Origin: Myxococcaceae bacterium
Lineage (GTDB): Bacteria > Myxococcota > Myxococcia > Myxococcales > Myxococcaceae
NCBI GenBank assembly: GCA_019686135.1
Contig: JADGHL010000045.1
Span: forward strand, 1 to 35,206
Length of the DNA: 35,206 nucleotides
Direction of reading: 5' to 3'
How positions within the stretch are numbered: position 1 is the first letter of the stretch; the number at the start of each line of letters is the position of its first letter. Positions 20,870-24,080 of the stretch are shown here, piece after piece. A model generated the notes under the pieces. The model worked only from the letters and a program-made list of their open reading frames with translations, ran no database searches and was not told the origin of the DNA. Made by a program: the position numbers and the translations under genes.

Positions 20870-20911
20870 TCCGGCGCCGTCCGGGCGCGTGGTACCCTTC
20901 GGGGCGCCTTG

Positions 20912-21883
20912 ATGCGCCCCGTCTTCGCCTGCCTCGCCGCGCTCGTCTTCGCCGGCTGCGCTACGCCGCGTGCCGAGAAGATGAGCTTCGCGGAGGCGTT
21001 CGGCGACGACCAGCCACTTGTTCCGGCGCAGACACAGCCCGTCCCGCGTGTGAAGGCGAACACCCGGACGGTCGCTTCCGCACAGAGTGCCGGCGGCGCG
21101 GCCCGCGCGGAGGAGTCGCTCGAGCTCCAGGCCGAGCTGGCGCGTTTTTCCGCCGCCGCGCGACAGGCGCGCGCGCACACTCGGCGTGGCGCGCCGATGC
21201 CGCTCGTCCAGCAGGAGAACTGGAACCGCGTCCTCGACGCGATCGATCGGTTCCTGGCGCGTGCGCCCGAACAGACCGCCTCCACCGACGTCATCAGCGC
21301 GCGGGTCGCCGCGGAGGCGGAGCTGGACATGGACGCGCAGGTGTACGGCGACTTTCCCGCGCTGCTCGCCGAGCGGGTGATGGACCAGGTGACGAAGCTG
21401 GCGGTGCGGATGGCGAAGCTGCGCCGCCTCCAGGTGCGGCCTACCCGCCCGAAGCTCACGTTCGAGTGGCCGATCGAGCCCGTGGTGGTGACGAGCCTGT
21501 TCGGGCGCCGCATGCACCCCATCACCCATGTGATGAAACCGCACTACGGCGTGGATCTCTCCGCCTACGGCGGTCAGCTCGTCTCCGCGGCGGCGAAGGG
21601 GACGGTGATCCGCGCCGGCTGGCATGGGGCGCACGGTGTGCAGGTGGAGATCCAGCACCCCGGGGGAATCATCACCCGCTACAGCCACCTGAGCGCGGTT
21701 CTGGTGGAGGAGGGCACGGTCGTCGAAAAGGGCGATCCGATCGGCCTTGCAGGCACGACCGGCCTGAGCACCGGCACGCACCTGCACTTCGAGTTCTGGC
21801 GCGACGGGCGGCCGCGCGATCCGCTCGAGGAGATGGCGCAGCACTCGGACCGTGAGGCGGTCGCCGGCGTGCCGCGCAGCTGA
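20912..21883 (+). CDS. M23-family peptidase lipoprotein (cell-wall endopeptidase or activator)
   Basis: An ATG at 20912 starts a lipoprotein signal peptide ending in VFAGC (Cys16); a TTG three bases upstream is less likely. Residues about 60-165 are charged helices. The M23 domain is C-terminal, with the zinc motif HYGVD (His211 and Asp215) and HLHFE (His290 and His292), plus GTVIRAGWHGAHGVQVEIQH and RYSHLSAVLVEEGTVVEKGD. These residues indicate an active zinc peptidase that cuts peptidoglycan cross-links in the periplasm, as in the LytM/NlpD group. Since the metal ligands are complete, it is probably an enzyme and not merely an activator of amidases. TACCCT (20893-20898) lies 13 nt before the ATG. 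The gene runs into a shared terminator with hupB-type HU. Confidence 0.93.
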   Translation: MRPVFACLAALVFAGCATPRAEKMSFAEAFGDDQPLVPAQTQPVPRVKANTRTVASAQSAGGAARAEESLELQAELARFSAAARQARAHTRRGAPMPLVQQENWNRVLDAIDRFLARAPEQTASTDVISARVAAEAELDMDAQVYGDFPALLAERVMDQVTKLAVRMAKLRRLQVRPTRPKLTFEWPIEPVVVTSLFGRRMHPITHVMKPHYGVDLSAYGGQLVSAAAKGTVIRAGWHGAHGVQVEIQHPGGIITRYSHLSAVLVEEGTVVEKGDPIGLAGTTGLSTGTHLHFEFWRDGRPRDPLEEMAQHSDREAVAGVPRS

Positions 21884-21896
21884 CCGTCGAAACGAA

Positions 21897-21926
21897 AAGG
21901 GCGCCGCCTGAGGAGGCGACGCCCTT
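21897..21926. terminator. Bidirectional hairpin terminator between the M23 and HU genes
   Basis: AAGGGCGCCGCCT pairs with AGGCGACGCCCTT with one mismatch around a 4-nt loop. Read leftward (the HU direction) the hairpin is followed by TTTTCGTTT, so it works best as the HU terminator; it also separates the two convergent genes. Confidence 0.8.
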
Positions 21927-21950
21927 CGGTCCAGTGATGCGAGCCGGCGG

Positions 21951-22220
21951 CTAGAGGCTCTGCTTCAGCTCCTTCGCCGGGCGGAAGCCGATGGTCTTGG
22001 TGGCCTTCAGCTTCATGATCTCGTTGGTCTGCGGGTTGCGGATCTTCCGAGCCTTGCGGGTGCGGATCGACCAGGTGCCGAACCCGGGGTAGCTGAACCG
22101 CGCGTCCTTCTTCACGGCCTTGCCGATCGTGCCAAACACCACATCGAGCACCTCGGTCGCCGCCTTCTTGGTCAGCCGTGACTGGGAAGCCACCGCTTCG
22201 ACGAGCTCTGCCTTGGTCAT
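21951..22220 (-). CDS. DNA-binding protein HU
   Basis: The ATG at 22220 gives the expected 89-residue HU with MTKAELVEAVA at the start, GFGTWSIRTRKARKIRNPQT in the DNA-binding arm, and FRPAKELKQSL at the end. A longer frame upstream has no support. The Pro of the arm tip is present (IRNPQT). HU bends and compacts DNA and helps replication and recombination; it works as a dimer. A purine-rich GGGAGAGGGA sits before the ATG as a ribosome-binding site. It is a standalone gene with its own promoter (22268-22297) and terminator (21897-21926). The exact subtype (HupA or HupB-like) cannot be decided. Confidence 0.97.
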   Translation of the reverse strand: MTKAELVEAVASQSRLTKKAATEVLDVVFGTIGKAVKKDARFSYPGFGTWSIRTRKARKIRNPQTNEIMKLKATKTIGFRPAKELKQSL

Positions 22221-22267
22221 TGGATTTCCCTCTCCCTTTGAGCCGCGGGTCGTGCCCGCGCGGGCGT

Positions 22268-22297
22268 TTGGTAACAAATTGTTGTCGTCGATGTCAA
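22268..22297 (-). promoter_or_regulatory. Candidate sigma-70 promoter of HU with an adjacent near-palindrome
   Basis: On the minus strand TTGACA (22297-22292) is followed after 18 bp by TACCAA (22273-22268). The spacer holds the near-palindrome AACAAATTGTT (plus-strand 22273-22283), which could be an operator or simply an AT-rich opening region. Confidence 0.55.
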
Positions 22298-22571
22298 CGC
22301 ACCGGCGCAGCCGGATGCGGAAAATCGGCCCCGCGGGCATGTATTTTTGACCTCAAAAATTACAGCTGCCGGCCTGGGCGGGATCCGGCCGCTTCCCTCG
22401 GAAAACGGCCCGCCTGGAGTCCCTGTTCTGATCGTCGTGGATCAGAATTGTCAGCAAATTCGATCAGTTGTGCGTGGCTATGTGATCGAAATGACTCGCG
22501 ATGATGTTCGACGCGCGGATCAAACACGGCGGGTATCCGCGATCAGCCCTGGCGGCTAGGCTCGGGCCGGG
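22298..22571. other. Palindrome-rich, GATC-rich intergenic region between HU and the beta-helix gene
   Basis: Between the HU promoter and ATG 22572 I see three good inverted repeats. ATTTTTGA/TCAAAAAT spans 22343-22360 (2-bp spacer), TTCTGATC/GATCAGAA spans 22426-22447 (6-bp spacer), and TTCGATCA/TGATCGAA is at 22459-22466 and 22483-22490. There are seven GATC sites between 22382 and 22544. A 70-codon frame (22347-22559, TTG start) passes through and has a protein-like piece (VLIVVDQNCQQIRSVVRGYV), but it has no ribosome-binding site and I do not call it a gene. A TAGGCT hexamer (22557-22562) ends 9 nt before the next ATG. The region is less GC-rich than its surroundings. Confidence 0.6.
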
Positions 22572-24080
22572 ATGAGGCTCCTTTCCGCCATCGCGGCCGC
22601 CAGCCTGCTCGCCTCATGCGCGCTCGGCCGTGCCTCGGATCGTCCAGCGCCGGCGCAGCCGGGGGCGCCCGCGGAGCCACCGCCGGAGCAGGTGGTGTTC
22701 GCCGACTCGAGCGCGCCCGCCGCGGGTGCGGATGGAACCCAGGCGCATCCATTCCGGACGCTCGCGTCGGCGTTGGCGGCGGTGCGTCCGCCCGCGACGG
22801 TGCGGCTGGCGGTGGGGCTCTACCTCGGCGAGGCGGTGGTGCCGGGCGACGTCCGCATCGAGGGCGAGCGCACCGCGGTCATCTACGCGGGCGGAACCGG
22901 GACCACGCTCCGCCTCGAAGACGGCGCCAGCCTCCACGGGCTCACCGTCCAGGGCGGAGCGGTGGGCGCGGAGGTCAAGGGCGCGGTGCGCATCGAAGAG
23001 GTCGCCTTCAGCGGGCAGCGTCAGCGGGCGATCGCCGTCTCCGACCACGGGGCGCTCGCGCTGATCGACGCCGACATCGAAGGCACCGTCAGCGAGACCC
23101 GGGGCGTGGTGCTCGAAGAGGGCGCGCGTGCCGAGGTGACCGGCGGCCGGTTCCACGGCGGTCTGCGGATCGGCGTCGAGGCGAAGGCCGGCACCTCGCT
23201 CCGGGTGGACCACGCGGTGTTCGACGGGCCGGTCGTCGCGCTCAAGGCGGATCGCTCCGACCTCGCTGCCACCGGGCTCCGCATCTCCGGCGGCCGCGGT
23301 CCCGCGATCTCGCTTTCGGGAACGCGTGCCTCGCTCCGGGACATCGTCATCCACGGGCACGAGTACGGCCTTTTGGCGAACGCCGGCGCCGTGCTCGACG
23401 TGCGTGACTTCACCACGGTCCGCGCCGAGCGCGCCGGCATCGGCGGCGTTGAGGTGCGCGGGGAGATCGACGGGCTCGTCGCGCTCGACAGCGGCAACTT
23501 CGGCGCGGTGCAGTTGATTTCGTCGACCGCCACGGTGCGGCGCTTCATCATCGCCCGTGCGCAGAACGCCGGCATTTCGGTGAACGGCGGGGACGTGACG
23601 CTGATCGACGGATCGATCGTAGATGTGTCCGACCCGGCCGACGCCGAGGGCGACGGGGTCAGCGTCCGTCACGCCGGGCTCCGCGGTACCGCGCTCACCG
23701 AAGCGCGGGTGTCTGGTACCGGCGTGCTCGCGGCCGAGGCCTCGCGCGTCGCGGTGGCGGAAGCGGCGATCGCCTCCGCGCGCTATGGCGGGCTCCACGC
23801 GGAGACCCGCGCGCGGCTGGACGCGGTCTCCGCCATCGTCCGGGGAGGAGGGAACGCGGCGCTGGTGGTGCTCCACGACGCGCGGCTCCGCGCCGATGCG
23901 CTGGAGACAGCGCAGAACGCCCAGGGGCTTTTGTGGGCGGAGTGTGGCGCGGGAGCGGAGGTGTGGCTGGGCCGCGTGCGCGGCGCCGAAGCCCACGCAG
24001 TCCACGCCGCGTGTGCGGGCCGCTGGCTTCGCCCCGCACTGCTCGACCCGTTCGCCACCGAGCAACCCGACGAAGAGTGA
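22572..24080 (+). CDS. Beta-helix (pectate lyase-fold) lipoprotein, 502 aa
   Basis: The ATG at 22572 starts a lipoprotein signal peptide (AAASLLASC, Cys16). A Pro/Ala linker follows, then ADGTQAHPFRTLASALAAV near residues 53-72, the DUF1565-type start of parallel beta-helix proteins. Through the rest, short strands recur with G-V/I-x-V spacing (GLTVQGGAVGAEVKGAVRI, GISVNGGDVTLIDGSIV), which is the right-handed beta-helix pattern. No catalytic Asp/Arg cluster of true polysaccharide lyases is obvious, so it may be a binding or structural surface protein. It is lipid-anchored in the envelope. It has no Shine-Dalgarno and a TAGGCT 9 nt upstream. No partner is apparent, and a 337-bp region with a long inverted repeat follows. 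Confidence 0.85.
   Translation: MRLLSAIAAASLLASCALGRASDRPAPAQPGAPAEPPPEQVVFADSSAPAAGADGTQAHPFRTLASALAAVRPPATVRLAVGLYLGEAVVPGDVRIEGERTAVIYAGGTGTTLRLEDGASLHGLTVQGGAVGAEVKGAVRIEEVAFSGQRQRAIAVSDHGALALIDADIEGTVSETRGVVLEEGARAEVTGGRFHGGLRIGVEAKAGTSLRVDHAVFDGPVVALKADRSDLAATGLRISGGRGPAISLSGTRASLRDIVIHGHEYGLLANAGAVLDVRDFTTVRAERAGIGGVEVRGEIDGLVALDSGNFGAVQLISSTATVRRFIIARAQNAGISVNGGDVTLIDGSIVDVSDPADAEGDGVSVRHAGLRGTALTEARVSGTGVLAAEASRVAVAEAAIASARYGGLHAETRARLDAVSAIVRGGGNAALVVLHDARLRADALETAQNAQGLLWAECGAGAEVWLGRVRGAEAHAVHAACAGRWLRPALLDPFATEQPDEE

Follow-up and report, generated by a model that had tools for sequence, protein, structure and literature searches.

A Conserved Array of GATC Sites Between the HU Gene and a Divergent Beta-Helix Gene in Myxococcaceae: A Candidate Multi-Site Operator

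Introduction

What does a dense cluster of GATC sites do beside the gene of an HU-family protein, and which of its features matter? The question is raised by a stretch of DNA of 35,206 nucleotides (hereafter, the window), whose closest named relatives are Myxococcaceae (Myxococcus, Corallococcus, Archangium, and Hyalangium). HU shapes the whole chromosome, and in the open-access literature we found nothing on the control of its gene in myxobacteria, nor on the GATC element described here.

A preliminary description of positions 22298-22571 of the window had proposed that they could hold operators, a small RNA, or a methylation-sensitive switch. The reading that we now regard as rather likely, on the strength of sequence comparison, is that the GATC sites form a multi-site DNA operator, bound by a putative regulator, in a control region that the HU gene would share with a divergent lipoprotein gene. 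The operator is probably an HU upstream element, able to serve the neighboring gene as well.

The Locus and Its Composition

The HU gene (21951-22220, minus strand) encodes 89 amino acids and matches PF00216 (E 8.1e-27). Its putative promoter consists of a -35 hexamer, TTGACA (22292-22297, minus strand), and, 17 bp from it, a -10-like TTACCA (22269-22274, minus strand). TTGAC is found upstream of HU in the promoters of relatives, a list that was chosen by that motif, and the block GGTAACAAAT at the -10-like element is kept in most of the aligned relatives of group 1 (defined below). On the other side, divergent from HU, lies a beta-helix gene (22572-24080, plus strand; PF13229 and PF07602), whose product is probably a lipoprotein judging by its N-terminal sequence. 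A -10-like TAGGCT (22557-22562, plus strand) stands 9 bp before its ATG, so that the mRNA may be nearly leaderless. A promoter and terminator scan found nothing. As for the DNA upstream of HU, a 31-bp block (22312-22342) has a 90% identical copy in genome G008 (L002, 1501-1531), upstream of a gene that reads like a Lys-rich, histone-H1-like one; this block is possibly a control site shared by genes of nucleoid proteins.

The seven GATC sites that had been noticed near HU are indeed there, as are the three perfect inverted repeats (arms of 8 bp) and the lower GC content (60.9%, against 71.1% for the window). The GATCs start at 22382, 22430, 22440, 22462, 22484, 22518, and 22541. The inverted repeats are IR1, ATTTTTGACCTCAAAAAT (22343-22360, loop of 2); IR2 (22426-22447, loop of 6), which is made of GATC sites 1 and 2 with their flanks; and IR3 (22459-22490, loop of 16), made in the same way of sites 3 and 4. 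Both counts exceed the expectation from 2000 dinucleotide shuffles of the stretch: seven GATCs were reached in 0.2% of them, and three inverted repeats in 0.85% when loops of up to 20 were admitted, or 3.65% with loops of up to 60.

How unusual is such a density in this genome? The window holds 294 GATC sites, and at least seven per 220 bp occur in four nonoverlapping stretches, 22298-22571 being one of them. By a crude gene call, the top intergenic density of the window (six GATCs per 150 bp) is found in this stretch and in one of the eight other intergenic regions, while a 400-kb sample of the same genome has at least six GATCs in 3 of 102 intergenic regions. That sample contains about 9.8 GATCs per kb of coding and 8.1 per kb of noncoding DNA, and the genome's ratio of observed to expected GATC is 0.98, neither over- nor under-represented. 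Given this abundance, a dense cluster alone is unremarkable; it is the position and the conservation that are remarkable.

Conservation of the Array

Of 36 genomes of the family, 28 have HU at an E value no higher than 1e-15; the window's own genome is one of them, and the matches in the 27 others show 79-87% identity. In 27 of these 28 a beta-helix match lies near HU on the same contig (the exception is G013). Adding 29 named contigs and dropping 12 duplicates (those with the same first 200 bp upstream) gave 45 nonredundant HU loci. All 45 have, between HU and the divergent gene, GATCs in one of two layouts: 0/32/53-54 (group 1; 26 loci, the window among them) or 0/21/75/96, scored within 1 bp per step (group 2; 18 loci), with one locus, L015, showing both. 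By comparison, samples of three genomes (400, 400, and 353 kb) contain 0, 1, and 4 matches to these layouts, and the single match in G023 falls in the sequence stretch containing the HU locus of that genome. Short cores conserved at conserved spacing in DNA, the mark of a multi-site operator, are what these loci contain.

In the window, the functional core would consist of six GATC half-sites (22430-22544), three of which are kept throughout group 1: site 1 (22430-22433, position 0), site 3 (22462-22465, +32), and site 4 (22484-22487, +54; +53 or +54 in relatives), each present in 26 of 26 loci of a group that is defined by this layout. The other three have their counterparts in L015 (genome G010): site 2 (22440-22443, +10) corresponds to a GATC at +11; site 5 (22518-22521, +88) to one at +86, which could be chance in a GATC-rich genome; and site 6 (22541-22544, +111) to one at +107, the loosest match, which could likewise be chance. 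Across the group-1 alignment the mean column identity is 66%, the flanks of the cores have diverged, and 16 columns are invariant, namely the three GATCs and four others. Because group-1 loci were chosen by their GATCs, this invariance is in part a product of the selection, from which the figure of 45 of 45 is free.

When 60 genomes were searched with a profile built on the group-1 array (HMM R1), 16 gave strong matches, with E values of at most 5e-8, every time at the HU locus. The exact group-2 pattern was matched in 24 of 60 whole genomes, in 12 at the HU locus and in 12 only elsewhere; 10 of the latter 12 are outside the family, and G043 has the pattern in 13 places. Outside the family, neither layout occurs in any of 14 HU loci (L099-L112, two of them with less than 160 bp of upstream DNA).

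How are the two layouts related? Their site-by-site correspondence is ambiguous because the lattice is self-similar, and L015 suggests that group 2 represents sites 2, 3, 5, and 6. Aligned by eye, L016 reads as site 1, a degenerate site 3, and site 4, plus two extra sites. In a tree of M23 peptidase, HU, and beta-helix fragments from the 45 loci, with L099 as the outgroup (HU only; branch supports were not looked at), L015 branches first and the window (L003) takes the basal position in group 1, into which two loci of group 2 (L016 and L027) also fall. Since L015 comes first and the window is basal in its group, an ancestor with six sites is a possible reading.

The inverted repeats fare differently. 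IR1, IR2, and IR3 are absent from the 44 other nonredundant Myxococcaceae HU loci, and in IR1 only the TTGAC inside it is common to several relatives, the palindrome itself being private to the window. Other perfect 8-bp repeats occur within the first 350 bp of seven other loci, and 37 loci have none. With the three repeats present in 1 of 45 loci, they are refuted as conserved operators by the preliminary description's own criterion, conservation in close relatives; of the operators that it proposed, only the GATC sites, conserved at fixed spacing, endure. Its 70-codon frame, thought to be partly protein-like, is not a gene: GC at codon positions 1, 2, and 3 is 0.68, 0.51, and 0.55, compared with 0.88-0.92 at position 3 in the two neighboring genes. 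When the frame was compared by tblastn with 600 bp of upstream DNA from the other loci, no relative emerged (best E 0.59), and a Pfam search returned no match for it.

Selection at the DNA Level

In group 2 the array lies within the first codons of the lipoprotein gene, and there all 60 Asp codons of the array read GAT with a C after them (15 of the 18 loci; L016, L029, and L030 left out), while the residue after the Asp varies (Leu, Gln, Arg, His, or Pro). Across the rest of the same reading frames Asp is GAT in 37 of 256 cases. Among the other Asp codons within the extension the figure is 6 of 13, and the excess of GAT may therefore be partly local. L028, one of the 15, has no start codon at the usual start position, and in L029 the frame reads as interrupted by a stop codon, with the 21/53/21 spacing kept. 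These comparisons indicate that selection acts on the array as DNA, also where it overlaps a reading frame. The segment encoded over the array is itself unusual: group-2 lipoproteins (e.g., L018 and L025) carry an N-terminal extension, MSD[LQ]..D..P..R..RDR.., before the apparent signal peptide.

A second view of the same matter comes from the Myxococcus-like genome G023, in which the ratio of observed to expected GATC is 0.22 (400-kb sample, L309-L328), with 0.61 GATC per kb of coding DNA. Despite this genome-wide depletion, its array retains all three sites. Low ratios (0.38-0.54, from small samples) are also seen in the named Myxococcus contigs L073-L075 and L079; G018, with 1.08, is not depleted.

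Spacing and Helical Phase

The distances between GATC pairs favor multiples of about 10.7 bp, that is, whole helical turns: the periodicity peaks at 10.7 bp, with a coherence of 0.50 over distinct layouts that was matched by none of 2000 random placements, and the mean for 22 GATC-rich intergenic controls is -0.03 at 10.6 bp. The loci share common descent, so this p-value, like all phasing statistics here, is informal. The six sites of the window follow steps of 10, 22, 22, 34, and 23 bp, agreeing within 2 bp per step with the 11, 21, 21, 33, and 21 of L015; a chance estimate of 6e-5 to 1e-4 for the window's three additional sites was dropped, because it assumed a 2-bp tolerance that site 6 exceeds. 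The coherence of the window's own array is 0.07 at 10.6 bp and 0.80 at 11.0 bp. As its spacing is looser, strict phasing is a property of the relatives.

With whole-turn spacing in the relatives, an oligomeric DNA-binding protein could contact the sites from one face of the helix, and once bound it would act on the flanking promoter or promoters. Half-sites two turns apart are known from multi-site operators of AraC-type and ribbon-helix-helix proteins (e.g., NikR). The likeness lies in the 21-22 bp or so between short cores on the same helix face; the differences are that the core here is GATC and that strong matches to the array occur at one place per genome (16 of 16). From the two-turn spacing, we would guess at a reader of one of these two kinds.

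Which Gene Does the Array Serve?

Another question concerns the target. The M23 peptidase and beta-helix genes (20909-24080 in the window) are also adjacent without HU in six genomes (L041, L044, and L377-L380), and HU was probably inserted between them in Myxococcaceae, as their pairing elsewhere implies. In the six such loci without HU (G006, G021, G026, G036, G037, and G056), no array lies between the two genes; L379 (G036) has GATC steps of 21 and 53 bp inside the M23 gene, not in the gap. One locus outside the family (L031, the same as L101), where HU reads as divergent from pssA, keeps TTTTCGATCAC and a GATC 21 bp further on. The absence of the array where HU is absent, together with the two sites kept in that locus, ties the array to HU, which would be its main target.

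The distances to the promoters point both ways. In group 1, site 3 lies 169-198 bp from the HU -35, a distance that varies without phase, while a TA[GC]NNT follows site 4 within 120 bp in 25 of 26 loci, about 6-10 bp before a start codon that is possible by reading, which suggests a leaderless lipoprotein mRNA in the window and its group-1 relatives. Between site 4 and this TAGnnT there are 31-35 bp in 18 of the 25 loci with such an element, and 73 bp in the window. For 17 of the 18 group-2 loci, 41-43 bp separate the first site from the HU -35 (119 bp in L016), and in most of the group this site lies inside the lipoprotein reading frame. The target promoter is thus ambiguous, and both promoters may be served.

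Weighing the Alternatives

Could the array serve the lipoprotein promoter only, with activator sites that would sit near -43, -64, and -96, and its link with HU be incidental? The recurrent 31-35 bp in group 1, the variable distance to HU, and the 14 HU loci outside the family that lack the array speak for this. We hold it to be unlikely nonetheless, since group 2 keeps the array though the lipoprotein start appears upstream of it, since the six beta-helix loci without HU are also without the array, and since L031/L101 keeps two such sites where HU faces pssA instead. That the sites are a cluster without function in a genome where GATC is common is scarcely credible: the ratio of 0.98 and the similar density of a few other intergenic regions would allow it, but the layout is fixed in all 45 loci and is retained in a GATC-depleted genome. 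In our view chance is refuted for sites 1, 3, and 4; it may still account for the GATC at 22382, and is less likely to do so for those at 22440, 22518, and 22541.

Two further explanations take up the methylation switch and the small RNA proposed at the outset. Switches of E. coli that depend on Dam and Lrp (pap) or on Dam and OxyR (agn43) have several GATC sites in a regulatory region, and clustering beside promoters is the likeness to the present array. It differs in its fixed, near-whole-turn spacing and family-wide conservation, and in the fact that this genome, 97% complete (G000), has no match to the Dam family (MethyltransfD12, PF02086, the one methyltransferase family covered). The same holds for 15 of the 22 Myxococcaceae tested, this one included, in a search whose control was positive in E. 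coli; the other seven have matches, some of them partial and weak, which is what can be said in favor of a switch. The array is also present in genomes without a match (e.g., G007 and G011), and with GATC at 0.98 of expectation and the Dam family missing from most members tested, a Dam-type, methylation-sensitive epigenetic switch is very improbable. SeqA, another reader of GATC, is said in the title of one paper to pair these sites. The oriC of E. coli has 11 GATCs and is bound by SeqA when hemimethylated (PMC5295017). The likeness is a protein that reads several GATCs and builds higher-order complexes, and the difference is that SeqA reads hemimethylated GATC, a state that requires Dam, whereas PF02086 has no match in this genome. 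A structured noncoding RNA, or a 5' leader transcribed through the array, is improbable too, if less so than the Dam switch. RNAalifold finds a weak stem between sites 1 and 3 (consensus -4.1 kcal/mol), in which 91.3% of cells pair (slid versions, 25-59%) and both partners have changed in 5 of 11 pairs, the inner helix contributing 4 of its 5. Its covariation score of 0.284 (shuffled mean, 0.158) was reached by none of 500 shuffles, in a test that favors the stem because the structure was taken from the same alignment. Several relatives also have a promoter-like block, TTGAC-N-TAGA, before the array. On the other hand, pairing of the cores follows from the self-complementarity of GATC, which inflates the signal, four of the six outer pairs never vary, and Rfam gave no match at the gathering threshold, the two below it being at chance level (E 0.19 and 0.59). 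In addition, the array lies inside a reading frame in most group-2 loci and upstream of the lipoprotein -10-like element in group 1, so its transcription context is not conserved.

Related Patterns Elsewhere in the Genomes

For the multi-site operator, the reading that we prefer, one would like to know whether the motif recurs and who reads it. Taken singly, the motifs are not unique: allowing one mismatch, 29 of 36 genomes contain TTTCGATCACTTG, with as many as 14 copies in a genome, and TGATC-N14-18-GATCA is found in 61 places of this genome. At least 41 GATC triples (five genomes searched) and at least 36 GATC pairs 21 bp apart (three genomes searched) are present in G023, and many of both look like codons by their letters. 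A dispersed repeat was considered for the CCGGAAAATCGGCC block and rejected; searched as GCCGRAAATCGGCCNC with one mismatch on both strands of 36 genomes, it gave one to nine matches per genome; it is not a repeat of high copy number, and a regulon is not clearly indicated either.

The next best matches of HMM R1, in two congeneric genomes, are weak (E 0.001 and 0.004) and lie upstream of a gene for a MerR-like regulator. GATC clusters before this gene were seen in ten genomes (L245, L246, L259-L263, L268-L270, L273, and L275); in L245 and L246 a gene encoding a sigma-70 region-4 protein comes next (by Pfam in L245 only), and in G031 the GATCs have the 32/21 spacing found at HU. The MerR-like protein was therefore tried as the reader of the array, and is kept as a lead only: the GATCs before its gene, pooled over the ten genomes, are not phased; neither this genome nor any other group-1 genome examined shows a similar cluster before that gene; and G011 and G028 have the array and no match to the MerR-like protein at E 1e-20.

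Conclusions and Perspectives

A bolder proposal may be put forward, which we regard as a long shot, though a slightly better one than the RNA: a Dam-independent, GATC-reading protein would assemble on one array per chromosome, beside HU, and set HU dosage, and Myxococcus would have purged stray GATCs because the putative reader would bind them. If this were true, the array would be an operator and, in equal measure, a landmark of the chromosome.

Whatever its reader, a cis-element that is kept family-wide, in coding and noncoding contexts, and even in a genome that avoids its core, is a concrete handle on the control of HU. The array could serve as bait for the putative protein that binds it, and altering three or four of its bases could reveal which promoter it controls.
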